Assembly (NCBI GenBank): GCA_008973525.1
Contig: WACJ01000501.1
Coordinates: 868,001-932,000, forward strand
DNA from: Stenopsyche tienmushanensis
Lineage: Eukaryota > Arthropoda > Insecta > Trichoptera > Stenopsychidae
Direction of reading: 5' to 3'
Length of the DNA stretch: 64,000 nt
In this document: positions 6,201 to 59,183 of the stretch, piece after piece
Numbering within the stretch: the stretch's first letter is position 1
Layout of the letters: the number at the start of each line of letters is the position of its first letter
The notes under the pieces: model-generated
The model's input: the letters and a program-made list of their open reading frames with translations, nothing else
Told to the model about the DNA's origin: nothing
Databases searched by the model: none
Program-made: the position numbers and the translations under genes

Positions 6201-6203
6201 TCT

Positions 6204-7099
6204 TTGACACATTCTTTAATCATAATCATAGTCATGGTTGAAGAAAACTCGCGATATACTGTTCGCGAAATAGCTAACAAGTTAGAAATTCCACGAACAT
6301 CCCTCCATAATCATCTGACAAAACTGGGCTACATCAATCGTTCAGATGTGTGGCTTCCTCATGAACTGACTGATTCAAATAAACTTCAGCGTATTTCAAC
6401 ATGCGATCTTCTTCTCCGACGACATAATAGCCAACCTTTTTTGAAGAGACTTGTCACTGGAGATGAAAGTTGGATACTCTATGAGAATATCCAACGTAAA
6501 CGGTCTTGGACCAAGGGTACAGAAGCTTTAATTGTAGCTAAACCTAGCCTACATCCAAAAAAAGTTTTGCTATGCATTTGGTGTAACTGGAAGGGGGTAG
6601 TTTATTATGAGCTACTTCAGCAAGGTAAAACGATCAATTCAACAAAATATTGTTTCCAACTAGACAATCCAAAGGATGCTATTGCCAGAAAACGGCCAGA
6701 ATTAGCGAACAGGCGAAACGTTGGTTTTCATGACGATAACGCCAGGCTTCATGTGTCTTTGCTCGTCAGAAATAAATTATTATCATTTGACTGGGATGTT
6801 TTACCTCATCCTCCATAGTCTCCGGACATTGCCCCTTCAGATTATTATTTATTTCTTCCGTTGAAAAAATCTTTACGTGGTAAAAATTTTAATTCAAAAA
6901 ATGATATAAAAATGTACCTTGATTTTGCCAACAAACCTGGGGAATTTTGGCAAGAAGGCATTATGAGGCTTCCGGAGAGATAGAAAAAGGTAATAGAACA
7001 GAATGGATCATATATTATTCAATACATTTTGATACAATACAAATTATTGCTTATTTTTTTCTTAATATAAAAACGAAAGAAACTTATGGGACACTCTAA
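6204..7099 (+). pseudogene. Mariner transposase, nearly full catalytic domain, one in-frame stop
   Basis: An open frame of 204 codons covers the second helix-turn-helix (YTVREIANKLEIPRTSLHNH), the linker WLPHELTDSNKLQR, the first catalytic block VTGDESWILYEN and the second block HDDNARLHVS. It stops at TAG 6816-6818, exactly where the family has Tyr in the HPPYSPD motif. The same frame continues with SPDIAPSDYYLFLPLKKSLRG and a C-terminal LPERWKKVIEQNGSYI (stop read through). The element ends with the terminal repeat GAAACTTATGGGACACTCTAA next to TA at 7100-7101. The first helix-turn-helix and the left terminus are missing. It is the least decayed transposase in the window, but it is 5'-truncated and inactive. 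Confidence 0.85.
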
Positions 7100-29979: not shown

Positions 29980-30138
29980 ATAAAAAATAAACTTTAACAC
30001 TGAAAAATATATCCATGGTTCGTTGGTCATAGACAAGCGCGCAAGTCTGGAAGTGGCGTTTGGTCTATGGCAGTGTTTAGTTCACTTGAGACATCTGTTG
30101 GTTGCCGGCGGTGCGAGTCTTGTTAGTACAAACAAAAA
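29980..30138 (+). promoter_or_regulatory. Presumed Rop promoter and 5' UTR
   Basis: Less AT-rich sequence directly precedes the Rop start codon, with AAACAAAAATGG as translation context (A at -3). No TATA box was identified with confidence. Confidence 0.4.
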
Positions 30139-33100
30139 TGGCGCTCAAGGCATTGGTGGGGCAGAGTGAGTCACTAATTTCGATAATTCGCGCACATTTA
30201 AGATAATTTTCGTATCTGTTCGTCTTTATTTTATCGCGATAGGTTCGATCGGAGATAATTAGATCGTCACTTTGGGATGCAGTCCCTTCTAGAATCCATT
30301 AACAGCCTTCGGAGTTTGACGTTTTGCGCAATTTAATCAGCGAATGAAACGCCCCGCGCTCGATTAATAATCGAGAGAATGTTTTCCGTCGAATACGTTA
30401 TTTGCATTGTGCTTCGAATTAAATTTTATGATTTTTCATTTTCATTTGACAGATCGTTAATTATTTGGTAACATTTTATGGGCTTCCTGTTGATGCATTT
30501 TAACGACATGAAGCGTCAATGAGTTGTCTGAAAACACCATAAAATTGCTCAAAATCCCTTAATTTCTTTATTTTAGGCGCTTTTTTGTACTTGTCGGAAG
30601 AATTATTGATTTTCTTCCGCTTATAGGTGGGGATGAAGTGTGAGTGGGGAGATATATGACGTCACGCTGGGGAATCGATAAACCTCCCTTATATGAATAG
30701 CTCCTTTGTTTTAATTCCTATGATCTTTTCCACTATAACTATTTTCTTTAGCCTTTTATTAGACACACATGCAATTAGAATATATTTCCAGTCAATAATT
30801 TGATGCCAGTATTCAGTTTCGTTCTTATTTCATCATTCTATTAAGGAAATTTGTACTTGACCTAGGTCTATCGTTTTCCAATCTATAAATAGGCACATTA
30901 CATGCTACTTCCAGCTATTAGAGAATCGTTCAATGAAATCTTTAAAAGGCAATAAACATGCAAAAAACGGCTTATTAAGAATTCTGCAAGAATGAATAAG
31001 AATGGCAAGATAAATATGTATTCAAAAAAGGTTTTATTTAGACAGGAAAATATTTAGTCGACAAGATGAAATAACACTCAATCATCAGTATAAATTAAGT
31101 ATTTCTTAATTATTAACAAGTTCTTTATATATAAGTATCATACATCTTATTTCTTGTTGTGAATTGTTTTCACCTTCTTTGGAGCCGATTCTCCTCTTTC
31201 ACTTCATTATATTGACTATTTTGTGAAGTGATGGATCCAGGTTTCATCCATGATTATGAATCGACGCAAAAACTCGGCTTTATTGCTGTAAAACATTGCC
31301 AAACGCTCGATTGAAACATCCTCACAGTGCAGTTTTTGTTCCATTGTGAGCAAACGTGGCACCCATCTTACGCATGGCTTTCTCATGTCCAAATTTTCAG
31401 TCAATATGCAATGTACACTATACACTTTATGAAATTCCTACTTTCATTTTTTTTTTTTGCTTGGTGGTAGAGAGTCTCTCTTTACTAATATATCTTAGGC
31501 GGCTAATATTTGCATCGGCAATTTGAAAAAATGGCTGTATCTTTTAAGCCGCTCATTATTTTATAATGAAATTTTATATAATCACTTACCACCTTATTCT
31601 CTTCAATTCTGCGTATTTATTTAAACATGAATATTTTATTTTTTATAGAAACGTGTATTACATGTATTACATGTATTATATGGTCGTGGTCCATGTTTCA
31701 CTCCCATAAACCATTTCGGCCTTTCTATCATCTGATATATAAAAATGAATTGGGTTTTGTTCGTTCGAAATGCGCTGCCATACCGTTCATCTGATTGCGA
31801 TAAAACTTCGTCCACTTATTGCTAAGGATTCCGCGAGTAACATAGGCATAGTCTAATATATAAAAATCAATGTTTGTTTGTCCGTATTTAATGCGTTGCC
31901 ATATCGTTAATTCGATTGCGATAAAACTTTACCAATTTATTTTTTGCACTTTCTCAAATAATATAGGTATAGTATAATTAACTTACAGTAGATCTTCTTA
32001 TATATAAAAATCAATATTTGTATGTTTGTTAATATTTATAATAAAACTAACAAAATAAAATTAACATCATTTATACTTTTCCCTTATATATCACTCAATT
32101 TCAATAAATGTATTCATTGTCGGAAAGACAATAAATAAATTTCATTCTTTCCTCTCTTTATGCTCTTGAGTATCAAATTTGGCCCCCATGAAAAATTTCA
32201 TCAATTCACCTTTGTGAATAAATATCCTGTTTTATGTTTGGATCATCATAGTGCAGCCACAAACAGTCTCGATAGAGAGTGTGGATGATTTGTATAGAAG
32301 TTTTCTTCAGAAGATAATGGAAAACTACTTGAGGGCGATCTTGTTAATTTTACTGAAAAGGGCGTACAAAGAGTACCGTCCCTTCTTTTTTACGAGGGCG
32401 ATGCCATACGTGATATTAAATGCATCTCGGATCCACTCTTACGCCAACTGAGGATGTTTCCTCATTCACGTGCATCTTACCTTAGTGAATTCTCTTCTTC
32501 ATATCTGTTTCAGGTTGTTCATATGATCATGTTTAATTCATTAGAATTTAAATAGTGACCGCATGTTAATTTTTTAAATTTCTTCAAATGAACTAGTTCA
32601 CAAATACATATATTTAATTCGTCGTTGAGTGATAATATGTTTTAATTAAAGCATTATCTATGCTCTGTACAAGGTATCCTTATTGCATTATTCATACGTG
32701 GATAAACCAACTCGCTAAATATATATTCATTATTAATGCAAATTTATATGACAAACTTTGAAAGTGCAGTAATTTGCATGACATAACACAATTCTTTGAA
32801 TGAGGTATCTCCGTTGAGATCGACTCAAATATTGAATAGATTCATAATAAACTTTATCTCACATGATATAAAAATATTGCCTAATTCGCTTGCAAGAATT
32901 TGAATGAAAAATCTTTTTACCACAAATATTGAGGAGGTTCATACAAAATTTCCAAGAAAAACTGTTAAAAATTGTATATGTTGAAGAAAGACAGAGATGG
33001 AAAGTGTCTTGTATGTTGATTTGGAGCGAATATCTTACAGATCGAAGATTGTGAATGGAAGACAGAGACGGAGAGAGTATCTTGCATACAGCGTACGATT

Positions 33101-36100
33101 GTACATACTATTAACCCAAATTTATCGACTAATAATGATGTGATTATGTAAAGAAATGACCGCTGGGGTCCTGACATACAAGTGGATTTGTATGACGTAG
33201 CGGACAAGCAAATATAGCATCTAAGATTATGTAGATTTTAAATTAGTTCACTACTTAAAGGGTTAATAATGAATTAAATATAATTTCAATAGACTTATTT
33301 TATGTATGCAGCGTATAAATTAAAAATATAAAATTTAACCCTTTTAGTGCCGGGCTAAATAGAGGTGCCTATGCGAGAAAAACCAGCCGAATTTTACAGT
33401 TTTACAAGGATTCGGAAAAATGTTTATAAAAACCAAACGAGGAACAATATTTACATGATTCAAAAAACCATATATTGTGGATGAAATACAGAACAAAATA
33501 ATGACACTAGTTTTTTTGTATTCAATTAAAATTTTAGAAAAAACAAAAGTATAAATGTTTATAAATAAAGTAAAAGTTGAGTTCTCTTATACAAAACATA
33601 TTTGCATATACAAACAGTCATCTTTCCATCATAATTTTATATGGGCCAATTATTATGAAGTATATACTTTGCATTTCCAATGCATTTTGTACCAAAATAA
33701 ACAAAACTACATAACAAAAATAAAACATAACTCGAAGGTACATGGTAGGCGCCGGGCGGATTATCTCTTTCGACATATGTAATTGGTATAGGTAATATAA
33801 AATTGCTGAAACAAAATTATGTTGTCATAAATATTTATATTTATATATTGTAAATGTGTAAAATTTTGTTGTAAAACTCACACAAATAATTTATTTAGCA
33901 TTCGTGGCTGCTAATGCACACTCCATGCAATCCTTTGTTGCACTTATTACAAATTGTGCGTGATTTTCTTTTTGGACCACCATCCTTTCTGCTGCACACC
34001 ACGCAAACTCTTTCCAAATTTCCTGGAAGTTTCCGTACGCCTATACGGGGCACATTTGTTGAACTTTTATGTTAGGTTTCGGTACCTCCAAGCGATAGGA
34101 AAATGTTGTCGTCAAAGAAATAAAACGAAAAACTATTTATTTTAATTCTCTCGTAATGAAATTAGATAATTTATAACGTATTCTAAATTTATTTTGAGAT
34201 AGAGTTCTCTCGCAATGCAAATAGTAAAGCGCTACAAGGCGCGGGCCGATATATCGGCTCTGGCACTTCTCGCCAGTGCAACAAGAGCCGATATATCGGC
34301 CTCCGGCACTCAAAGGGTTAACAACACATTTTAATCGAATTTCTGCTAAAAAATGAATGCTTCGTAGTTGCGTTTAATTATGTTACTGTGGAATCAGTGG
34401 ATGTTAGGAATAAAAAGATTAACTACCTCCGCACTAGAATAATTTTGTCTATTAATTTTAAATGTATTATTTTGAGACATGAGAAGTTCAATAAAAACCG
34501 AAGCAAAAATATAAATAAATTAAGCCACAATACAAAAATTCTTGGAACGTCATCGAACAATGAAAATACCATACCTAAATAAGATACCTGAATATTATTA
34601 TAATCGGTTCATTGTTATGGTTAGACGGCATATTTAATTGTGTTTTACGATTACATATTTTATCAAAATACTTTTATGATGCATATCGATATCAAATTTC
34701 CTAAACTGTAATCTAATTTTTTTCAGAGATTATGAATGATGTCATAAAATACAAACCCAAAGGCAAAGCAGCGGCTGCAGCTGCAGCTGCTGGAGTTGAA
34801 TGGCGTATACTCGTCGTGGATCAACTTGCAATGAGGATGGTTTCCGCTTGTTGCAAGATGCACGATATCTCAGCAGAAGGAATAACCTGTAAGTACTTTC
34901 ATCGAGGGTTTGAAATCGATGAATTATTAAATTGGGAATTAATTTTTTAATAACATTGCAGTGGTCGAAGATATTCACAAAAAGAGGGAACCGTTGTACA
35001 CTATGGAAGCTGTCTATTTAATCACGCCGTGTGAAAAGTCTGTTCATGCGCTCATAAACGACTTTTCGGCAACCAGTCGTGTGATGTACAAGGGAGCTCA
35101 CGTTTTCTTCACCGAAGGTATCTTATTAAATTTAAATCGATTATTGCATACAAAATAAAGACGGTATTTTATGAATCATCCCATATTTGTCTGCATATTG
35201 AAGATCCGCATTGTTTTTATTTATGGGGAAATTTATAAAAGCTAATTTTCTAGATTCTTTATTGAGAAATAATTTTTCTTGTATTTTTTTGTTATTTTTT
35301 TTTTTTTGTGATATTTTGTTACCAGCATGTCCTGATCCCCTTTTTGAAGAAATAGTCAAGATTCGCAAATATATCAGGACGTTGAAGGAGATCAACATTG
35401 CATTTATTCCATACGAACGACAGGTTTGTTCTTTGATGAAAATAGTATGGGCTTTACAGTTAAATTATGAATGCAATCTAATCCATCTAACAAATGGTGA
35501 TGGCTTTTAAAGTTCGTATATGTTTGGGAACTGGTTTAAATTCTAATATTTTTGTATCCTATTTTTTCCTTTCCCCTTTCTTCTGTTTTGAATCATTCAA
35601 AATTCATTTACTCGAGACCTTAAATACTGTATAATTTCTAACATAAAATGGATTTTTAATACTTGATTATATATATATATATTGCATGAGTTTTTAAAAT
35701 GTTAAAGAAATATGTTTATTCGTTTGCATCTTCTAATAGTCTGCCCTGAAGAGCTGTTCAACGAATTATGCAAATCATGCGCTGCTAGAAAGATCAGGAC
35801 ATTGAAGGAAATAAATATTGCATTTTTACCATACGAATCTCAGGTTAATTTCTAGTTGTTAATGATTGTAGTTTGCCTTTTTTTAATACAATATAAAATA
35901 GTTGTTTTTTTTAAATATGTTCCCATATTAGTTGCAATATTCTTAGTGGTTTTAGCTTAAAAAGTATTTTTTTAAATTTAATTTTGTTCCTTAATGTGTA
36001 AATATTTGTATTATTTTACATTGCGAATTTAAATTTTCTGGTGTTAAGATATAGTAGAGCTTTCTTTCTTGATGGAAATGTAATATAAAACATTTTTATT

Positions 36101-39100
36101 TTGTCCTACAAATTTATATAAGAGGTGCCGGTTTTAAAACCATCAGCAGTGACAAGTAGTAATCCAATAATGCTTCATATTTGTGCTTAAAACAAATTCT
36201 GTAACATTGTGTATCGGTAGTGCCAAAATCGCATGCCATTTTTTATATCAGCAAATATGATCTATGTACCGTTACATCTTAATCTTCCTACAGTTGAAAT
36301 GCAGTAAGCAAGATTATCTTTCATTGGTGTCAGAACTTCCATCAAGTTAATATTTGTCTCAGAAAGTGGCCTTAAATGAGTTCCTTGTTGTAGAAATTCT
36401 TCGGTTTTGAATCAAAAAACCAAGAAAGGCGTTTTTTTATATCCTCCAAATTCATAAAAGAAATTGTGTTTAATAACTGCTCTAATATGCAACGCATGCC
36501 CTAACTCTGATAATTCAAAAGCAACTTTTAAGGGGCGCATTTTAAGGCTAACACTCCTCTCAACCTCATCTAGCACTTAAGATCACCCTGCAGTGGCACT
36601 ACCGATACTATAAAACCGCATTTCTTCGTTATATTTTAACAAATATATTCAGTAGTCTTGTTGCTTTTTCTATGTACATTATTATTTCTTCCTGAGATTA
36701 ATTTATGTGAATATATAAAAAGTAACCCGAGCATCGTATTTCATTTAGGTATTCTCTTTGGATTCTCCTGATACATTCCAGTGCTGGTACAATCCGGCTT
36801 TGAAAGACGCTCGAAATGCTAATATGGAGCGCATTGCCGAGCAGATCGCAACATTATGTGCAACTCTCGGAGAATATCCTGCAATTCGATATAGGAGGTA
36901 ATTTTAAAATAGATGTTTTTTAAATAGAAATTATTTTTACATGAAATTATAACAAATTGAAATGTTATTTCAGCGACCGCTTTAATGAAGATTTGGCACA
37001 ACATGTCAAACAAAAACTTGAATCGTACAAGGTAAGTTTTGTACGTATGTATATTTTTTGTTTACATTGGTTCTTGTATTAAATATATATTTTTTTAATG
37101 TAGGCTGATGATTCTACGATGGGAGACGGACCAGAGAAGGCTCGTTCTCAACTCTTGTTGTTGGATCGTGGCTTTGATTGTGTCTCGCCTCTTTTACACG
37201 AACTCACACTACAAGCTATGGCTTACGATTTATTACCGATTGAAAATGATGTTTATAAGTATGATATAATTATCCTGTGACATTCTTATTTATCCATGTT
37301 AAGAATGTAATATTTTTATATTATTTTCTAATAGGTATGAAGCTGCCCAAGGTGGTCCACTGAAGGAAGTTCTCTTAGATGAGAATGATGAGCTTTGGGT
37401 GGAGCTTCGTCATCAGCATATTGCTGTTGTATCACAGAGTGTAACAAAAAATTTGAAGAAATTCACTGAATCTAAAAGGATGGGCACCGGTAAGTCGCGA
37501 ATAAGGTTTTTTAAACGAAGATCAAATTTTTTCCAGTGTTGTATGATTATGCAATAACTTTCAATTTATAGGAGATAAGCAATCTGTTCGAGATTTGTCT
37601 CAGATGATCAAGAAGATGCCTCAGTATCAAAAGGAGTTGTCCAAGTATGCGACTCATCTTCATCTTGCTGAAGATTGCATGAAAAATTATCAAGGAAATG
37701 TCGATAAACTGTGCAAAGTTGAACAGGTATGTATTGCTTTAATGGGAAGGAAGTCTTTTTTAGTCTTCTTTTATCAATGTTAATTTAATGTTTCCAGGAT
37801 CTTGCAATGGGAACAGACGCAGAAGGCGAAAGAATTAAAGATCATATGCGAAACATTGTCCCCATACTCTTAGACAAAGTAAACACAATACATTCTTTTG
37901 TATATATCTATTATTAGAAGCATAAATTTAATATCATTAAACTATTTATATTTAGGATGTTTCCAATCCTGATAAAATGCGCATCATCGCACTGTATGTA
38001 ATGTCAAAGAATGGAATTTCTGAAGAAAATCTCAACAAATTGGTCACCCACGCTGAAATACTTCCTCAAGAAAAACAAACAGTTGCTAACCTTTCTCATC
38101 TTGGAATCAACGTCGTCATAGAAGTGAGTAATTAATAAATTAACATTTATAGTTGATAAGGGTCTTCGGACACCGTCTCAAAGAAAACGGCTCGACGCTT
38201 CCGTGGATCAACTCGATACCATGTATACGTTGCTTTCCCGTGCCTTGTCGGCACTAACACCACCTATACGTTCATCCAGAAGATCCGTTGAGTGAGCGTT
38301 CCAAATGAAACTTATGCAACACCTTCAATATCAAATGAATAAGGAGGTGAATGTATGATGCAGACGAAATGGATGTAAACCCGTCGTATGAATGGATATT
38401 GAATTATTTTTATAGAAACTCGTAAATGTTTATACTTATATTCAACAAAAAATCGTATTCTAAAGAATCTTTTAACTGTCATTAATTAAAATCGCTATCG
38501 TCGGATAAACTATTAATCTCTTTCAACAAAGAAAAGACGACTTTTGTTCATGTTGTCTTGAAAGTAGGCGTTTGTTTTGATAATTAAGATACTCGTATCA
38601 TTCTTATCGTTTACCAATTTTGATATTCCCTCTTGACTGTTCCGGAGAGGCATCATTAGCCGAGTATCACTACTCCTTTGTAAAATCTACTCCAGAAGTA
38701 AACTGGCAGGCTTGCACAGTAACCCTGTCCTTTTATTTTCGCAACACATTAGTAGACAAAAAAAAAGGGTTAATAAATTGGGATCACAGTCACCCACAAT
38801 TTTCGTGAGTTTTTCGTTAATTGAGATTACAGTCTCCCGCATTCAACTAGTGGCGCGCCGAGGGCTGTAATCTTCGTTTCTCGCATACAATGTGTTAATT
38901 TGAAAATATATTTTATTTCTAGGGTGGACGTAAGAAACAATTCTCTGTACCACGAAAAGAACGCATCACTGAGCAAACTTATCAGATGTCGCGTTGGACA
39001 CCGGTTATTAAAGACATTATGGAGGATGCTATCGAGGATCGACTTGACCAGAGAACATTCCCATTCCTTCCATTGCCTGCAGGGCGAGCATATGGTGCTG

Positions 39101-39507
39101 CCTACAATCCTCCTACCAGGTAAGAGTAATAGAGAAATATTAATGAGGTTTTAAATTGTAATAAATATTTATACAGATTTTATATATATATATATTTTAT
39201 AATTATTTAAAGCGCCCGTTATGGACAATGGCACAAGGATAAAACACAGCAGACGATTAAAAATGTCCCTCGACTTATTATTTTCGTAGTAGGCGGTAAG
39301 TTATCGATCGTATTAATTCAAAAATAAAACATCAATAACATGATTGTGAATAACGTTGCATGAATAATTTCAGGAGTGTGTTTCTCGGAGATTCGATGTG
39401 CATACGAGGTTACAGCAGCTATGAAAAATTGGGAAGTCATCATCGGTTCTTCCCACATAATAACACCAGAAAGCTTCCTTTCAGATTTGGCAAACCTTAG
39501 CGCTTAA
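30139..39507 (+). CDS. Rop: Rop / Munc18-type Sec1 family protein
   Basis: This gene encodes the Sec1/Munc18 protein that binds syntaxin and promotes SNARE assembly at the plasma membrane in exocytosis and synaptic release. Exons drawn from GT-AG signals and frame: 30139-30166, 34727-34888, 34962-35117, then 35326-35423 or 35740-35843, 36749-36897, 36974-37031, 37104-37258, 37335-37489, 37572-37726, 37798-37878, 37956-38123, 38923-39119, 39213-39295, 39374-39507. The joined frame is open to TAA: 594 residues with the second choice of exon 4 and 592 with the first, the usual family length. Landmarks: [128 protein letters not shown] and [15 protein letters not shown]. The first intron (4.6 kb) carries three repeats. 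An eight-alanine run sits in the loop after KPKGK (about 34770-34793). Confidence 0.96.
31216..31425 (-). pseudogene. Mariner transposase remnant (copy 3)
   Basis: Minus-strand ORF of 69 codons: [20 protein letters not shown], then [20 protein letters not shown] with [10 protein letters not shown], the linker and first catalytic block of the same mariner subfamily as 2796-3175 and 21160-21560. Truncated on both sides. Lies in Rop intron 1, antisense to the gene. Confidence 0.8.
31735..32030. repeat. Tandem-monomer repeat C, copy 2
   Basis: Three AT-starting units near 31735, 31858 and 31997, collinear with 26298-26590, including TGCGCTGCCATACCGTTCAT, TTCCGCGAGTAACATAGGC and CTTACAGTAGATCTT. 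Lies within Rop intron 1. Confidence 0.55.
33050..33264. repeat. Interspersed repeat B, copy 2, ending at TTAA
   Basis: Shares several blocks with 20815-21160. Its right edge CACTACTTAAAGGGTTAA has the style of a piggyBac-like terminus, suggesting that repeat B is a non-autonomous TTAA element. Confidence 0.45.
33339..34317 (-). mobile_element. piggyBac-like element with residual cysteine-rich domain
   Basis: TTAA at 33335-33338 and at 34318-34321 flank a 979-bp element. The left end CCCTTTTAGTGCCGGGCT and the reverse complement of the right end, CCCTTTGAGTGCCGGAGG, are inverted repeats differing at one base over the first 15. A subterminal palindrome GCCGATATATCGGC occurs twice near the right end (about 34246-34259 and 34288-34301). 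On the minus strand (about 34045-33900) one frame reads [20 protein letters not shown] and [18 protein letters not shown], matching the C-terminal cysteine-rich domain of piggyBac transposases (CxxC...CxxC spacing). The DDE domain is deleted, so it is non-autonomous. It sits in Rop intron 1 in the opposite orientation. Confidence 0.85.
35326..35423 (+). other. Rop exon 4a (alternative)
   Basis: Acceptor TTGTTACCAG|CATG and donor CGACAG|GTTTGT. With the G left over from exon 3 it encodes [20 protein letters not shown] then [13 protein letters not shown]. It is 98 nt and ends on a codon boundary. Compared with exon 4b it is two residues shorter between the Phe and the conserved IRTLKEI and has a different helix sequence (EEIVKIRKY against [11 protein letters not shown]). 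Confidence 0.9.
35740..35843 (+). other. Rop exon 4b (alternative)
   Basis: Acceptor TTCTAATAG|TCTG and donor TCTCAG|GTTAAT. With the G from exon 3 it encodes [20 protein letters not shown] then [15 protein letters not shown]. It is 104 nt, the same phase class as exon 4a. This version is nearly identical to my recollection of fly Rop in this region and equals mammalian Munc18-1 in length, so it is probably the ancestral form. Confidence 0.92.
36211..36608. mobile_element. MITE-like element with 15-bp perfect inverted ends in Rop intron
   Basis: GTATCGGTAGTGCCA at 36211-36225 is repeated exactly in inverted orientation at 36594-36608. If the ends are TCGGTAGTGCCA the flanks are TA on both sides, as in Tc/mariner insertions. 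The interior minus strand reads as protein-like stretches with a frame break ([20 protein letters not shown], then [20 protein letters not shown]), perhaps a captured or residual transposase piece. It lies between exon 4b and exon 5. Confidence 0.6.
38124..38922 (+). other. Rop intron 11 with possible repeat insertions
   Basis: An 800-bp intron, longer than its neighbours. The 38165-38330 part is less AT-rich and looks foreign. TTAA-bounded sequence near 38774-38897 with GGCTGTAATCTTCG-type words could be another small TTAA element. Neither is proven. Confidence 0.35.
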
Positions 39508-46718: not shown

Positions 46719-49362
46719 TTATAAGCTTAAAACTTCATCTTGATTGTAGTTATTCAAAATAGATAATTCGTCGTCGTCTACAATGTACATGGTATGCGCA
46801 TCGCTGTTGGAAAATAGCACATTATCACTCAGCGTCATTATATCAATGTTTGAAGAATCGTTTATGTTTTCTTCGCCGGATTCCTCGATTATTATGTAGC
46901 TTTCATCATTTTCACTTTCTGAATTTTGCAAGTCGTTTAAAATATTCGAGATCATCTTGGGATGAACCGACAAACATTTGACATTGTTTTTTGTGGGCAA
47001 CTCGATGCCATCGCCTTTGAAATCGGACAGATTTGTCTCCGAATAATTTTTCGAGTGTTTCGTTGAAGATTTTGAATTATTTTTATTGTGAATTTTTAAA
47101 TGACGCGTTAGTTTTACCTTCGTTGGAAAATCTTTTCCGCAAATATCACAAACGAAGGGACGGAAGTTCGTATGCGATCTCATGTGTATTTTTAAATGTC
47201 CTGATTCATAAAATGATTTGTTACATTCAGAGCATTTGAATTTTTTCGTTTTAAAATGATAGAGAAGATGTCGTCTTCGTTCGTAGTTACTGTAGAAAGC
47301 CTTTTCACATAGGTGACAAGGATATCGTCTAATGGCTAAGTGTATTTGTTCGTGTCTTTGGAGTCCGGTTTTTTTAAAAAATCCCTTCCCGCAATATTCG
47401 CATATATGCTTGAAATTACCCAAGTGTCTTTTTTGATGGATTTTGAGCGACTTGGGGTTTATAAAAGTTTTATCGCAAAATGTACATAAAACGGATTGGA
47501 CGGGCAAATGAGCTTTTTCGTGATATTGAAGATCGGATGTCTTATTATAAATTTTTCCACAGTAGGAACATGGAAATCCTTGTTTAACGTCTGAAGTCAT
47601 ATGTTTTGCTACATGTTTCTGTAATTTCATCAGTCGAGTGAAACTTTTGCAACAAATTTTGCAAACAAACGGTTTTATATTTAGATGTTCTCGCTGATGA
47701 ATTATAAAGTCATGCCGACTGCCAATATTTTGAGAACATATTTCACATACGAATGGCGGTTCATGTTGCACATTAGCAATAGTTAACATTTTTCCTTTAT
47801 TAAAATGCGATACGGAATGTTCTTTCAGAGTTTCGAGATCAATTTTCTTAAATTCTATCAAACATAGATGGCACAGAAATTTTGTAAATGTAAATAACTC
47901 CTTTTCGCTTTGATCATCATCATTTTCTTCAGGTTGATGACTAAATGTAGTAATTATTTCTGAAATTCTCGGAGCGACTTCCTCTTGAACATCAGTCTCT
48001 GTGTATACATCTCGAGACTCCACTTGTAATTCCAATAGCATTTCCGAAGAATCCATATCATTATACTCTTTGTGTAAATCTATATAAAATTGCTCAGTGG
48101 ATTCTATCGATTCAATTTTTTCTCTGGGATCAACAGGTACATCAACAGTCTTTGAGCATATATGAGACGATTTATCAATTTCTTGTAAATTAATATTTAT
48201 AGGTAAATCTAGAAAATTAAGCTGATTGTCATTCGCAAATATTATATTCGTATCATCTTTATCCACGTCAGATATGAGGCTATTTTTAATATCTTTTTCA
48301 GAACTATCCATTAATACTTTAAAAATAGAAGCATCCGGTATGATAGTACTTGTTACATCGTTATGATGCATAAATATATTTGTATCTTTGCCTAAAATAT
48401 TATAACATTGAGAAAAATGCTCATTAGGAATACTTTCTTCCAAGTACGTTTCTTTATCAAAAATACTACAATTGCTTCCAGATTTATCTATTGGAGATTT
48501 TCTTAAAAATGAAAAGTTATCTATAGACACTTCATTTTCATCAAAATTACTTGAAGAGATTTTATTTTCCGATAAAAAACGGTAAGAGTTTTCTATTTGT
48601 AAACGAAATTTCCAGAAATCATTTACTTTTATATGACAATTATTACATATAAGATTTGTTAAGCCGTCGTCATGTGATATCTAAAAAAATAAAATATCAA
48701 AATTAATTACAGATGGTTATTGAATTTTTCATATTTTATTATTTTGCATATTTTTAAATACAATTTTGTCAATAATATCTACCAAAACTATATGCCACGT
48801 ACAACCTATGGATAACTATGTTTAAATGATACTATATGAGAACTATAACGAATTTGATTATCGGAAGATGAGGACAACGATGATATTAATGAGTTGATTG
48901 AATATCACTCAGGACTATTGTTAAATGAATGCTTAATTGAGCAATAAGAATTAAACGAAATACATAACATCATGTGAACTCTTCACAAGTATATAAAGAA
49001 AACACCCAAAAGCATTTAAACAAGCATCGTTAACTTGACTATGTATATTGATGGATACATATTTTAAAATATAATTTTTGGCGTTTATTTTACACAACTC
49101 CATTTTAAATTCACACACATTTTAAGAACCAATCATGTACAAAGCCCAAGGGTCATATGTATGTGATAAACTATGATTGTGAGCCAAATTGAGAGCATTT
49201 TTTAAAGCAATATTTGCATAAATGGTTACATAAGATTTTATTGACGTTAATACAAAGATTGAATTAAACCTTCACAGCAGCAATTGACATGATAAACTCA
49301 GCTTGGGGCAAAATAGCATGCAATTGTGTGTCTGTACGTAGACAAAGTCGACAAACCGACAT
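46719..49362 (-). CDS. ZAD-C2H2 zinc-finger protein, nine fingers
   Basis: Probable sequence-specific nuclear DNA-binding protein. Two exons on the minus strand: 49362-49270 (31 codons, MSVCRLCLRTDTQLHAILPQ...) and 48680-46719. The splice is phase 0: GTGAAG|GTTTAA to TTTTTTTAG|ATATCA. Together they give 684 residues. The N-terminus is a zinc-finger-associated domain (ZAD) with C4, C7, C43 and C46 and the typical FWKFR helix start. A long acidic, low-complexity linker follows (residues about 80-300), then nine C2H2 fingers at roughly 300-570, the first and second slightly irregular, for example CEYCGKGFFKKTGLQRHEQIH-type units with short linkers. An acidic tail closes it. The 588-codon piece alone would miss the ZAD, so the upstream exon decides the start. 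Orthology to a named fly gene was not attempted; ZAD proteins evolve fast. Confidence 0.93.
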
Positions 49363-53800: not shown

Positions 53801-56800
53801 ACTTGTTTTATACATATTTTTATTGCACTCAGATAAGTAGTTTGCATATATTTGTTCTGTATGTTATAATTTTTCGACAAGCTAGCCCTTAAAACAGCTA
53901 AGAATAATTTTAAAAATATACAACGTTAATCTCTCAATGTTTTATTTTATTGCAGGAATCGATCAATACCCTCAATAATTTTCCATCAAACGCAACTGCT
54001 ATATCTCAATCAATAACGAGCAAACTTATCGTTAAAAAAGTAATTACTATCAATATAATTCCAGTAAATCGATTTAATATATACATATTTTTATCGGACT
54101 AATATTTAATTTTATATTTTTAGCATAAAAGAGATAGTATATTAAAATATCTAGGTTTTACTGGATACACTAAAGACGATTTACATCAGCTCTCTGTTAT
54201 TCATATTGCCGGAACAAAGGGAAAGGTTTGGAACAACGACAATCAATTTATAACGCTCGTAAATACTTTATGCAATGATTTTATTTATTTTCAGGGTAGT
54301 ACAAGTGCCTTGTGCGAGTCAATTTTACGCAGTCACGGTTATAAAACGGGACTGTATAGTTCGCCACATTTGATATCTGTGACGGAAAGGATACGATTAA
54401 ATGGAAAACCCATTGAAAAAGAGCATTTTGCCAAAGTTTTTAGTAAAATATATAAAGATATCTGTGAAAAACAGGTTATTAAATACATATGTTTATATTA
54501 GTGTTTATAAATTCACCCTCTAACGGGCGCAATGCATCGGGTTCGATCATGCGCGGCTATTTATTCGAATCGAGAAAATATTTAATATGTCACATATTTA
54601 GAATATCTGTTTCTTGTTTTGTGTTAGACTGTATTATTTTTTTGAAGAAGTAAATCCGGTAAAATATACAATTTACTGTAGCATATTCATCTAAAAAGGT
54701 CGAACATGTATATAACACATTTAGGTATTATTTTATGTCTTGCATATAATTTAACATTTTATTTATTCACAAAAATACTAGTCTAAGTAGCGAAGAGGTT
54801 TATTAAGTTTTTGCAATGCATCTATATATGCCAATAAATTAGATTGAATGTTTAGGAATGTGAAAATGATTTTCCACCATATTTCGGCTTTATGACTGTG
54901 ATGGCATTTAATGTATTTATTGCCGAAAAAGTTGACGTTGCAATTGTTGAAGTCGGCATAGGCGGTGAATATGACCAAACTAATGTTGTAAGGTTATTAC
55001 TTTTATCTTCGTTATTAAATTTTATCAATTAAGTAATAACGAAACCAATAATAATCAATTCCGATTGTACAATATTTAGTAACGTTCCCGTGGTCGGTAT
55101 CACATCATTGGGGTTGGACCACACAGCTCTGTTGGGAAACACAATAGAAGAAATTGCAAGGCAAAAAGCTGGAATTATGAAACCAGGATGTAAGGCATTC
55201 ACAGTTCGACAACAACCGAACGCGATGAAAGTTCTTCGAGATATGTCCAAAATCAGAAAGGTTATATTTTGATGATTATTTAAATTTTACCATATATAAA
55301 ATATACATTCTTATACGCGTTTCTTTTTGGTCGAATAAACAGTGTACGCTAAATATAGTACCTGATTATGAAACATACAAGTGGGAACATGATCCTGACG
55401 AGAAAAACGTGCATCTCGCTAACCCGACCAAATATTTGAACGCCTCCCTCGCAATACAATTAGCACATAGTTGGATTAAACAAAATAAAAAAATTGTAAG
55501 TAGATTTTTTTAAATAGCAATGCATTAAACATTAAGATGCTTACGTGTGATAATTTATGATTTCTACAATATAGAATTTTGACAATAACATCTTAAACGA
55601 ATATTATAAACCGAAAGTTAACGGAAATACAAAAGACGATATGCTTATTTATATTCCAAAGAAAACTCTGGATGGAATACATTCCAGTTTTTGGCCAGGT
55701 AGATGTCAAATATTAAACGAAGAAAATAGGGATATTTACATAGATGGCGCGCACACAATTGAATCTATGGAGGTATGCGCTGAATGGTTCAAGAAAGAAT
55801 GCAGGTAAGAATGCCTTTATTTATTATAGATAGATGGTTTTTTTGTTATGTTTTCTGGAGTTGTGTGATGTGTAACGCTGTCTTACTGGAAATAAAAATC
55901 AAACACATCAATATGTTGAGATTCAATGTATATCGAGATTCAATGTAGTAATCATTACAACTACAACTCGAATCAGTGTAGTAAATACACCATAATAAAA
56001 GAAAGGTTAACGGAATGATGCACACCGATTTTAAAGCTAGATAAGTATAGTATTTTAATATAGATGCATCAACATTTAACCCAAATGCACACAATTGTTA
56101 TGCCGTCATTTGACGGTGAAACGGCAGGAACTTTTTCCAGTACTATCCTGTTAATGGGAGGCAAATTTATTGTTATTAAATAAAATAATTATTCATTTGT
56201 TTTTAATATACATATTAATTAATCTAAATGATGACGTGTTGTACCTCTGTGTCGTTGTATCAGTGGTCCAGAGTTTTTGACCGGTTGGACACGGAAACCT
56301 TGTGACCCCTCCCTCTAATTTTAGGGCTTTCTGCCACAAATTTGGGGACCTCAATAGGGTCATAGAGGCTCTCCTTGGCGGCTGGATAGTACCCTTTTTC
56401 CCCCTAACAAGATAGTACCCTTTTTCTCACACCCAAAATAATAACGTTAAAAGATTGGATTCTTATACACTTTTGTTTGTATTTGTACTGCTTATTAAAA
56501 AATATGTTTTAGATTTTTTATTTAAATAAAATATCATATAAAATTTAAATACAATTTTATTAAAAAATATTACAGTCAACAACTCATTCTGTTTAGTAGA
56601 ATATCAATTATTTAAAAAACACATTCTACATCGATGTTCTTCAAATTTGTGAGCAATATTTCAGGTTGTTTATTTCAACGCTCAATTGCAATAGTTATTT
56701 CACGTTGCCAGCAATAGTTGCAGTTTTCATTTATTCTATTTAAGTATTCCCGCAGGGTCAACTTCCAACAAACGATCGATATCGGTTAGCCACCATATCA

Positions 56801-59183
56801 GTCTATCCAAATAGCCTTGATCTAGTTCGTATGACAGCAGCATCAATTTTAAATGACTGTCTGCAATCGGCAAGTTTAATTGCGCGTGCAATTTAGATTC
56901 CTTGACCGAAAGCAATCTAATAATCACTAAAGCTATGAGATTCCATTGGATAGCTTTAAAAGTGATATTATGTGCCTGCAAATTGAATGTGACTATTAAT
57001 TCTTGCACGTCGCTAATCACTTCCATCGGTGCTATATTTAAAGCTCTCAATAGATCGGGCAACACTTTGTCCAGGCCGTTTAATACAATTTTCCTACGCA
57101 GCGCATGCTGTGCACTTTTATGGATCAGAGGTAGATTAGTAAATTTATCATCTTCAATTTCTGGCGGCTCTGGCATAACTTGCTCCCTTTCGGGAATAGT
57201 CATATCTCCTTTATAATATGCGCGTACTTTTATGTCTAATTGTTTGCCTTCTTCTTTTAATATTGAGTAATCTGGTAACGGTTTCAAATTTTTCGTTTGA
57301 TTAACTTCAGCATCGTATTTTATGTCTTCCAATTCTAAAATATTCAATTTTCTACATAGTTTTGTGTATGCGTCGTATGATACAGACGAACTAGACGGTC
57401 CACATGTCAAATTATGTAAATATTCTTTTATTGAATCGCTCTTGTCGGCTACCATTTCCTTTACTTTTTTCTCGCCAAATAGAAAGAGTAACGTATCTAA
57501 ACTGAACCATTCACTTATGCATTTTTCAACTAGGGTAATAGTTGGTGTGTTATCGGACACATGCTTTTCTTTACTTTTTGTGGGTTTTTCATTCATCTTT
57601 GCTAATTTAAGATCTTTTCCAGCACTAATAAACGGATCCTCCCTATTCTCTGATTTTCTTTCTATTACATCTCCAATAATCATAGGAGTTGTTTTAGATT
57701 TTTTTTTAACATTAGTTTTACTTACCTCTAATGTTCGTTTATCTGATTTTGCTGTGTTGGTATGTTCAGGATTTGTAATAGTCTCATCTTTTTTATCAAT
57801 ATTTTCATTCATTTGAGTTAAATCGTGTGTCTTAGTAGTGCTTTTATTGTGATCGGTCTGAACATTTTGGTCGCTGGAATTGAAAGATTTTTTTAAAGGA
57901 TCATTATTTTCCTCGTTCAATTCCATTTCACCCAAAGATGCTTCGGTAAAATCTAATAAACTGGTAAAGTGCGCGTCCTTATCAATGGGGATTTTTTCTG
58001 TAATTGATATGTCTATTATTTCACCTGGAGCTCCTTTGCTGTTCAATGATAGCAGTTGGAATTTGGGGATGTCTTCTTTCTTCCTAAACCAAAGTGGGCT
58101 CGTCAATATCTGCTCTTTTATAAAAGTGGATGCTTTATAACATTGGTTACTGCAAAAATTCTTCCTTTCGGTTATATCGTACACTGTATTATTCTTCATG
58201 CATATTTTATAAGTTTGTGCAGGTACTTTATCTTTGAGTTTCTGTCGGCATAAAGGATATCCGCAGTGTTTAATGATCGACCTCTCAATAGTAACATCTT
58301 CATAATGATTCCGGGTGAGATGTGGTAGACTTTCAATGAACATTTTTTCTGTCACATTAGAATCTAAAAGTTCAATCACGATTGATTGAGCTTTGGCATC
58401 ACATTCGCGTTTTTTCATTAAATACTCTCTAAGTTGCTCTTTTGTCATATCTTCCATTTTTGGTGGAGTTCTTTTTGCCTTTGTATTCATTTTTATGTTT
58501 TAAAAATGAATATTATGATGCCAACAATCTGGTCCAACGTCAAATGTCACACGTTAATTTCGTCGTAAATTTAATGTCAACCTTAACAGCATATTATTCA
58601 GGCATGTCTTATACAACGTAATTTGTTTAATAAAAATGAGTTTCACTTGATTTATGTTTTTAGGGACGATTCTTACAAAATACTGATATTCCACGTAACG
58701 AAAGGAAGAAATCCAAAACCTATGATGGAAGTGATATCAAAATTAAATTTTAACATGGCATTATTTGTTCCCGATCAAGCATTTAGTGAAATTAAATCCA
58801 AAACTCCCATTGGTCAGTACATTTTTTTTAATAGTTAATTTTATGCATAAAATACATTAATTTGAAAAGAATATCTTGTAGATCAAATGGATGTAAATAA
58901 TACTATTGTAGATAAACTGTCTACATGCAAAAATCAAGCTCAGACATGGATGGAATTAAACAATCAAACGAATTCTACACAAAGCGATAAAACTGTGATT
59001 GAAGTTTTCTCGGATGTATCGACAGCTTTGGAGTACGTGTCTTCGTATTGTATTAAACAAAAGCCACAAATTTTAATAACTGGATCGCTATTATTAGCTG
59101 GTGCCGCTCTAACTGTATTAGATCCACAATTAATAAAATCGCACAAAGTTATATCATCTAGAAAACATAATCTAGCAATATAG
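50803..59183 (+). CDS. Fpgs: Folylpolyglutamate synthase, ten coding exons
   Basis: Adds glutamates to folates so that cells and mitochondria retain them (Mur-ligase family, ATP-dependent). Exons: 50803-50847, 53956-54039, 54124-54225, 54295-54474, 54856-54992, 55080-55260, 55343-55495, 55575-55804, 58664-58812, 58882-59183. The joined frame is open, 520 residues. The start ATG directly follows an in-frame TAA; the first residues [12 protein letters not shown] are basic and hydrophobic and lead into TYEESINTLN, the usual start of the catalytic domain. Landmarks: ATP loop GTKGKGS (73-79, split by an intron), [82 protein letters not shown] (DGAHT at 351-355), [12 protein letters not shown] and C-terminal [19 protein letters not shown]. 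Intron 1 (3.1 kb) carries a mariner. The eighth intron (2.86 kb) contains RPAP2 on the other strand. Confidence 0.95.
51380..52185 (+). pseudogene. Mariner transposase remnant in FPGS intron 1
   Basis: Across frameshifts: [20 protein letters not shown] (first helix-turn-helix), EKLKDEPRT, then [40 protein letters not shown] (second catalytic block, HDNARPH type), [13 protein letters not shown] and [21 protein letters not shown] C-terminus. The right end reads, in reverse, TTAGGAGGACCCGAAACTAT, the same family as 27671-28258. The left terminus was not found. Confidence 0.75.
52186..53340. other. Rest of FPGS intron 1, first part
   Basis: AT-rich, no recognisable element or exon. Confidence 0.5.
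53440..53541 (+). other. Exon-like orphan sequence in FPGS intron 1
   Basis: The acceptor-like CTTCAATTGCAG is followed by an open, protein-like stretch [18 protein letters not shown] then [14 protein letters not shown] and a stop. It also continues a 65-codon ORF from 53344. No family recognised. It might be an alternative last exon, a nested gene fragment, or chance. Confidence 0.25.
56275..56345. repeat. Interspersed repeat D, copy 2
   Basis: TTGGACACGGAAACC and CTAATTTTAGGGCTTTCTG occur in the same order as at 41440-41510. It lies within the eighth intron of FPGS, downstream of RPAP2. Confidence 0.4.
56736..58490 (-). CDS. Rpap2: RPAP2 / Rtr1 family RNA polymerase II CTD phosphatase, nested in FPGS intron
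   Basis: An intronless 584-residue ORF on the minus strand. RPAP2/Rtr1 proteins remove phosphate from Ser5 of the RNA polymerase II C-terminal repeats and help import the polymerase. The N-terminal RTR1-type zinc finger is visible: CGYPLC at residues 76-81 and NFCSNQC at 111-117 (Cys76, Cys81, Cys113, Cys117), followed by [12 protein letters not shown] and [17 protein letters not shown], all typical. A charged, poorly conserved middle (about 180-310) and a C-terminal helical part with [26 protein letters not shown] phrases (about 315-345) and [20 protein letters not shown] near 465 fit insect members. The ATG at 58490 is followed by [20 protein letters not shown]. The whole gene lies inside the eighth intron of FPGS (55805-58663). 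Lack of introns is compatible with an old retrocopy or with a compact native gene. Confidence 0.93.
   Translation of the reverse strand: MNTKAKRTPPKMEDMTKEQLREYLMKKRECDAKAQSIVIELLDSNVTEKMFIESLPHLTRNHYEDVTIERSIIKHCGYPLCRQKLKDKVPAQTYKICMKNNTVYDITERKNFCSNQCYKASTFIKEQILTSPLWFRKKEDIPKFQLLSLNSKGAPGEIIDISITEKIPIDKDAHFTSLLDFTEASLGEMELNEENNDPLKKSFNSSDQNVQTDHNKSTTKTHDLTQMNENIDKKDETITNPEHTNTAKSDKRTLEVSKTNVKKKSKTTPMIIGDVIERKSENREDPFISAGKDLKLAKMNEKPTKSKEKHVSDNTPTITLVEKCISEWFSLDTLLFLFGEKKVKEMVADKSDSIKEYLHNLTCGPSSSSVSYDAYTKLCRKLNILELEDIKYDAEVNQTKNLKPLPDYSILKEEGKQLDIKVRAYYKGDMTIPEREQVMPEPPEIEDDKFTNLPLIHKSAQHALRRKIVLNGLDKVLPDLLRALNIAPMEVISDVQELIVTFNLQAHNITFKAIQWNLIALVIIRLLSVKESKLHAQLNLPIADSHLKLMLLSYELDQGYLDRLIWWLTDIDRLLEVDPAGILK

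Follow-up and report, generated by a model that had tools for sequence, protein, structure and literature searches.

The Rop gene of the caddisfly Stenopsyche tienmushanensis probably contains an ancient pair of mutually exclusive exons, from which two Rop forms would be made that differ on the N-peptide side of domain 1. The gene is complete and lies at 30138-39507 on the + strand of the window (the whole 64-kb stretch of DNA that was analysed), with 14 exon positions, exon 4 being present in two copies, called here 4a and 4b. The product of insect Rop, a Sec1/Munc18 protein, is required for vesicle release by cells, and in the fly it serves both synaptic and general secretion. The Sec1 domain (PF00995) extends across residues 37-585 of the 592-aa form (E 4.3e-140), and among the matches listed the closest relatives are insect Rop and Munc18-1, not Vps45, Sly1 or Vps33, the top match being Rop isoform X2 of the caddisfly Arctopsyche grandis (90%, full length). 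The exons are as follows.

30138..30165, + strand, Rop exon 1, encoding MALKALVGQ and the first base of K (gene model)
34727..34888, + strand, Rop exon 2 (gene model)
34962..35117, + strand, Rop exon 3, ending in phase 1 (gene model)
35326..35423, + strand, Rop exon 4a, the a-type alternative, 98 nt, acceptor ttaccag, donor CAG/GTTTGT (typed by residue 138, which is I, and by the tree)
35740..35843, + strand, Rop exon 4b, the b-type alternative, 104 nt, acceptor tctaatag, donor CAG/GTTAAT (typed by residue 138, which is L, and by the tree)
36749..36897, + strand, Rop exon 5, entered in phase 0 (gene model)
36974-37031, 37104-37258, 37335-37489, 37572-37726 and 37798-37878, + strand, Rop exons 6-10 (gene model)
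37956-38123, 38923-39119, 39213-39295 and 39374-39507 (stop included), + strand, Rop exons 11-14 (gene model)

Without exon 1, the gene spans 4.8 kb. The intron 3' of exon 4b holds a 15-bp perfect inverted repeat (36211-36225 and 36594-36608) with TA at its ends, and the segment of about 400 bp that it encloses, between 36211 and 36608, has the look of a small mariner-type insertion (MITE) in the intron. Elsewhere in the window are a mariner-type transposase fragment (6201-6818, + strand, PF01359, E 4.2e-22), a cysteine-rich ORF of 58 aa (33898-34071, - strand) which has no Pfam match and which we take to resemble the C-terminal zinc finger of piggyBac transposases, a long C2H2 zinc-finger gene (46719-48680, - strand) whose zf-AD match falls under its cutoff, and an RPAP2/Rtr1 family gene in a single long ORF (56736-58499, - strand, PF04181).

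Exons 4a and 4b are both 2 modulo 3 in length, have their own AG and GT sites and lie 316 bp apart. Because exon 3 closes in phase 1 and exon 5 opens in phase 0, a single copy of exon 4 fits, giving a protein of 592 aa with 4a or 594 aa with 4b. Joining 4a to 4b shifts the frame and brings the first stop at codon 170, a TGA within 4b, while omission of both brings it at codon 123. An earlier reading made from the sequence alone (the sequence-only reading) had given these coordinates, lengths, splice sites, spacing, protein lengths and frame breaks, and all were reproduced. The homology that it claimed between the two exons was also borne out, since their proteins align with a BLOSUM62 local score of 101, whereas 2000 shuffled versions of 4a average 18.9 and never exceed 39. 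A third copy of exon 4 was not found in the window by tblastn with either exon as query (next match E 0.17). The pair is probably an ancient tandem exon duplication with mutually exclusive use: each exon is entered in phase 1 and left in phase 0, use of both or neither breaks the frame, and the full protein is therefore either Rop-a or Rop-b. The same early stops could instead serve as a dosage switch, in which messengers with both exons or neither are frameshifted and decayed and the duplication mainly sets the level of Rop; fly Rop is essential, yet its overexpression strongly inhibits release (from the accessible part of PMC8377282). Such a switch is improbable as the main explanation, however, because it has no need for two coding versions under lasting selection, and both are open across many orders.

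The spread of the two exon types was followed in relatives from three protein searches, whose best 120 of 3248, 363 and 3127 matches gave 233 different proteins; with the best 120 per search listed, a group that lacks a type cannot be taken to have lost it. The exon-4 segment was cut from 217 of the 233, the other 16 being fused models that were left whole, and 213 of the extracted segments have 36 residues, one has 37, one has 34 and two have extra residues. By a rule set after inspection of the data, a segment is a-type if position 138 is I or V, or L followed by A, and P0119, P0124, P0211 and P0213, which have other lengths, stay untyped. The species counts leave aside 40 records (15 a and 25 b, P0199 included), the a parts of 11 of the 16 fused models were returned to the a set, and species names were given by hand from the record listings, mostly at genus level. 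The sequence-only reading had proposed looking for a second exon 4 in other insects, and among the matches listed the insect entries number 78 for a (Hermetia twice) and 53 for b, with both types in 27 species. Window included and among the matches listed, the b-type occurs in 13 insect orders and the a-type in 11, namely Trichoptera, Lepidoptera, Siphonaptera, Neuroptera, Coleoptera, Hymenoptera, Diptera, Hemiptera, Thysanoptera, Orthoptera and Blattodea; the b-type alone is listed for Odonata, Phthiraptera and Phasmatodea (five species in total) and also for Arctopsyche. The a-type state is found in none of the 36 non-insect species among the matches listed, four of which (three nematodes and Nymphon, with T at position 138) are of neither type and untyped.

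In each of the 16 fused gene models among the matches listed the a segment precedes the b segment, and in two of them the former is no more than a short a-like piece. In predictions P0003, P0004, P0009, P0058, P0061, P0067, P0071, P0089, P0092, P0121, P0122, P0143, P0201 and P0207 the two exons are joined and the frame is preserved by extra residues or trimmed pieces, and such fusions of 4a- and 4b-type exons are probably annotation errors. Among the Drosophila records P0186, P0187 and P0143, the isoforms of Drosophila pseudoobscura and D. miranda have a short a-like piece, AIPTRALDMLKAHK, that runs in frame into a complete b exon, and the D. subpalustris record has a full-length but altered a segment; to judge from these records, the a exon may be kept or in the course of being reshaped in Drosophila. 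The flanking residues of Hermetia illucens P0122 are unlike those of P0151 and P0154, which suggests that the black soldier fly has two Rop loci, each bearing a and b exons. P0199, a Rop labelled Rhagoletis zephyria, has a mite-like sequence and is perhaps contamination. Octopus and argonaut isoforms (P0140, P0141, P0159) differ from squid s-Sec1 in the exon-4 segment, for example ISKSTTLKF versus LCKSTTARF, and this difference in cephalopods might be an independent alternative exon.

A tree of 69 exon segments has a branch (89/64) with the a rows to one side of it and likewise gathers the b rows to one side (100/90), with window 4a among a and window 4b among b; it was made from 36 columns, its bootstrap is unsettled and the support of the a side is moderate. 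The arrangement supports, short of proof, a single duplication as the origin of a and b. Collembola join b at 99/92, and on that placement the duplication would predate the insects, although a tree with insect a and b together is still allowed (AU p 0.317).

The two types have changed at very different rates. In the 27 species with both types, the a segments have a mean pairwise identity of 75% and the b segments one of 95%; with one species for each of seven orders the figures are 65% and 94%, respectively. Identity to the outgroups is 76% for b and 67% for a, but, judged from single residues, b is not simply ancestral despite this greater likeness. Among the matches listed, position 109 is A in 20 of 36 outgroups and in 76 of 79 a, and V in 52 of 54 b; position 112 is D in 30 of 36 outgroups and 65 of 79 a, and E in all 54 b; and position 126 is Y or F in 21 of 36 outgroups and 66 of 79 a, and K in all 54 b. 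Consequently, the description of 4a as the diverged copy stood in part: 4a evolves faster, but at these three Munc18-1 positions the exon that differs from the most frequent non-insect state is 4b. The faster change of the a-type falls chiefly in the helix that flanks the putative pocket for the syntaxin N-peptide. The most variable a-type positions are 113, 116, 117, 119, 120, 122 and 142. As for the helix change noticed in 4a, the shortening by two residues is not general to a exons and is a local trait. Among the 217 extracted segments, the 34-residue length of window 4a is matched only by the wasp Phymastichus coffea (P0124), and therefore the shortening probably arose twice.

The two exons may also have exchanged sequence. 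Window 4b alone among 54 b segments has Arg at position 128, with the same codon as in window 4a, and of the 15 residues shared over positions 127-143, 11 have the same codon where 6.5 would be expected (P 0.014), compared with 2 of 6 against 2.8 over positions 109-126, the split at 126/127 having been chosen after inspection; for the whole segment the figure is 13 of 21 against 9.3 (P 0.069). The planthopper a-type P0072 has a b-like first half, and both P0072 and P0076 are mixed, with an a-like second half. These patterns hint at gene conversion between 4a and 4b.

As to expression, all 15 a-type records outside the species counts are uninterrupted ORFs of 552-593 codons, with a longest contig per record of 1844-5002 bp. 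The 23 tabulated records (15 a and 8 b, the latter picked by hand from 25, five of the 8 looking non-insect) have uninterrupted ORFs of 1656-1788 nt, with the longest contig of each at 1844-5002 bp. Short contigs with a full Rop ORF are taken here as spliced RNA, which is our own reading, the source label being silent, and the a-type entries of Xenopsylla, Riptortus, Panstrongylus and Clastoptera are without a listed genomic contig. From these records and from annotated isoforms of relatives, the a-type and b-type forms are probably each expressed singly, and by extension this would be so in S. tienmushanensis.

Both alternative donors have T at +3, a position occupied by a purine in 12 of 12 constitutive donors of the gene (Fisher P 1/91). 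This fits donors that are weak and regulated; with T at +3, one exon could therefore be rarely used. Window 4a itself might be thought to be decaying and out of use, having lost two residues, with an end branch of 0.39 against a median of 0.057 in the 69-segment tree and a weak donor (GTTTGT), and D. pseudoobscura and D. miranda keep only the short a-like piece fused to b. Decay is nevertheless quite unlikely, since the frame, acceptor and donor of 4a are intact, the loss is of whole codons and the named pocket positions are kept. Moreover, on a crude 12-site matrix both splice sites of 4a outscore those of 4b (donor 6.8 versus 4.5, acceptor 6.5 versus -3.2), and the wasp P0124, an annotated a-type isoform, is short by the same number of residues.

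Competing RNA structures of the docking and selector kind were sought as duplexes from one intron to another among the three; 52, 38 and 5 of 60 shuffles did as well or better, two of the three comparisons thus giving nothing better than most shuffles. An inverted repeat that links the beginning of 4a to the interior of 4b (35311-35337 and 35792-35818) was set aside, its 10-nt perfect core being expected by chance in 1.6 kb, and so was a TGCATG at 35683, between the exons, which we take to be an Rbfox-like site, since the window has 27 copies of this motif, no more than the 36 expected. The 316-bp spacing is presumably too great for steric exclusion, given minimal intron sizes. The one-of-two choice may be enforced mainly by the frame together with decay of the wrong products.

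The exon-4 block aligns to residues 109-143 of Munc18-1 (PDB chains, 3puj_A numbering), with 4a two residues short. In Munc18-1 the positions Cys110, Phe115, Ile127 and Leu130, together with 132, are assumed here to line the syntaxin N-peptide pocket. Positions 110, 115, 127, 130 and 132 are C, F, I, L and E in both window exons, and a-type sequences keep them in 77, 78, 77, 74 and 79 of 79, respectively, among the matches listed, so the proposal that both exons retain the named pocket positions holds in the window and in most relatives. The mean entropy of these five positions in the a-type is 0.18 bits against 0.93 elsewhere (permutation P 0.013), in one post hoc comparison over 36 positions. 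The exceptions include both Hermetia a segments (Val or Ile at 110, Cys at 130), that of Drosophila subpalustris (Ile at 110, Val at 127, Cys at 130), those of Bemisia and Brassicogethes (Cys at 130, with Cys110 retained) and that of Chrysoperla (Phe at 130). The syntaxin N-peptide binds the outer side of domain 1 of SM proteins, where its Leu or Phe enters a hydrophobic pocket (PMC4224468 and PMC7470827, in the portions available). The swapped block would comprise a loop, a helix and the start of a strand that form the pocket wall.

AlphaFold2 models were taken from database relatives only, one b-type (Tribolium P0096) and one shortened a-type (P0124). Ahead of the strand, the P0096 model has helices at Munc18-1-equivalent positions 112-120 and 123-126; those of the P0124 model are at 112-116 and 119-124. 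In the segment, the block means of pLDDT lie at 85-92 in P0124 (residues 101-140) and at 78-92 in P0096. In a Foldseek search with the P0124 model, the first four ranks go to complexes of Munc18-1 with syntaxin 1, and Munc18-1 bound to the N-peptide of syntaxin 4 comes at rank 6. In P0124, then, the models predict a shorter, differently divided helix on the pocket side, with the fold retained, the effects of length and type not being separable in these models.

Rop-b would be the conserved general form, and Rop-a mostly keeps the named pocket positions and sets a different, fast-evolving helix alongside. It is plausible, if somewhat short of probable, that the main function of the switch is to provide Rop forms that differ in tightness of binding or in the choice of syntaxin or helper, by tissue or stage. 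Conserved pocket residues in 4a would be equally expected if both forms bound syntaxin alike, the helix serving another partner or nothing. In a rival reading the pair is truly exclusive, but the Rop-a helix would be an exposed surface that meets a different protein (for example tomosyn, Mint or a kinase), or would alter stability or localisation; the variability of the a-type at the seven positions named above, with the pocket mostly kept, is in favour of this. It is a serious rival but somewhat unlikely, as the variable helix lies directly between two proposed pocket residues and positions 130 and 110 are themselves changed in 5 and 2 of the 79 a-type sequences, respectively, among the matches listed.

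A more specific idea is that Rop-a in insects takes the role of the vertebrate paralogue Munc18-3 in syntaxin 4 traffic. Munc18-3 shares with some a-type exons the I at 138, the C at 130 and a helix one residue shorter, and in the window identity to Munc18-3 is 0.588 for 4a versus 0.514 for 4b, that to Munc18-1 being 0.676 and 0.75. Across all insects, however, the gap is negligible (0.513 for a, 0.496 for b) and the BLOSUM sums favour b (91.0 versus 95.3), so that mimicry of Munc18-3 by the a-type is not convincing and such a role is very doubtful. Vertebrate Munc18-1, -2 and -3, which have different syntaxin partners, carry versions of the domain-1 segment in separate genes and without splice choice. 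Tentatively, and with less confidence than in a difference of binding as such, one Rop gene may be seen as dressing its pocket in two ways by an exon switch and so performing by splicing a share of the work of the three Munc18 genes of vertebrates. The switch would be at least as old as the split of the insect orders that share a and b; b would be frozen and a re-tuned by lineage, with occasional gene conversion between the exons, a becoming shorter in the caddisfly and the chalcid wasp and flies pairing the change of Cys110 to Ile or Val with that of Leu130 to Cys.

Tandem exons of like length, one of which is used, are known from Dscam1, srp (PMC6071210) and muscle myosin heavy chain (PMC2257972), and vertebrate Snap25 exon 5 (PMC10676425) is a tandem exclusive pair in a gene of the fusion machinery like Rop, as given in the accessible portions of these sources. 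The Rop pair differs from other tandem exclusive exons in comprising two exons only and in its host, a Sec1/Munc18 chaperone. Splice diversity is also known in the vertebrate orthologue, Munc18-1, but it is C-terminal and not at the N-peptide pocket (PMC4583478, in the part available). The nearest likeness is found in the Rop X1/X2 isoforms of other insects at NCBI, which concern the same gene, segment and a/b exon types, with the a-then-b order where fused; they are automatic annotations without stated function, and only Phymastichus coffea P0124 has the 34-residue segment among the matches listed. No description of the Rop exon pair was found in the open-access titles and abstract openings listed, a body from which subscription papers are mostly absent, and a term search of the available main text of PMC3228551, on the prediction of mutually exclusive exons, did not give the word Rop. 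The exon pair is already recorded in databases, as X1/X2 in many insects, and is a real but little studied pair.

The role of the Munc18-bound syntaxin N-peptide is still disputed (PMC4224468, in the portion available). A conserved switch that replaces just the putative pocket segment would allow the N-peptide question to be addressed in living animals, and studies of insect Rop may have pooled two proteins as one.
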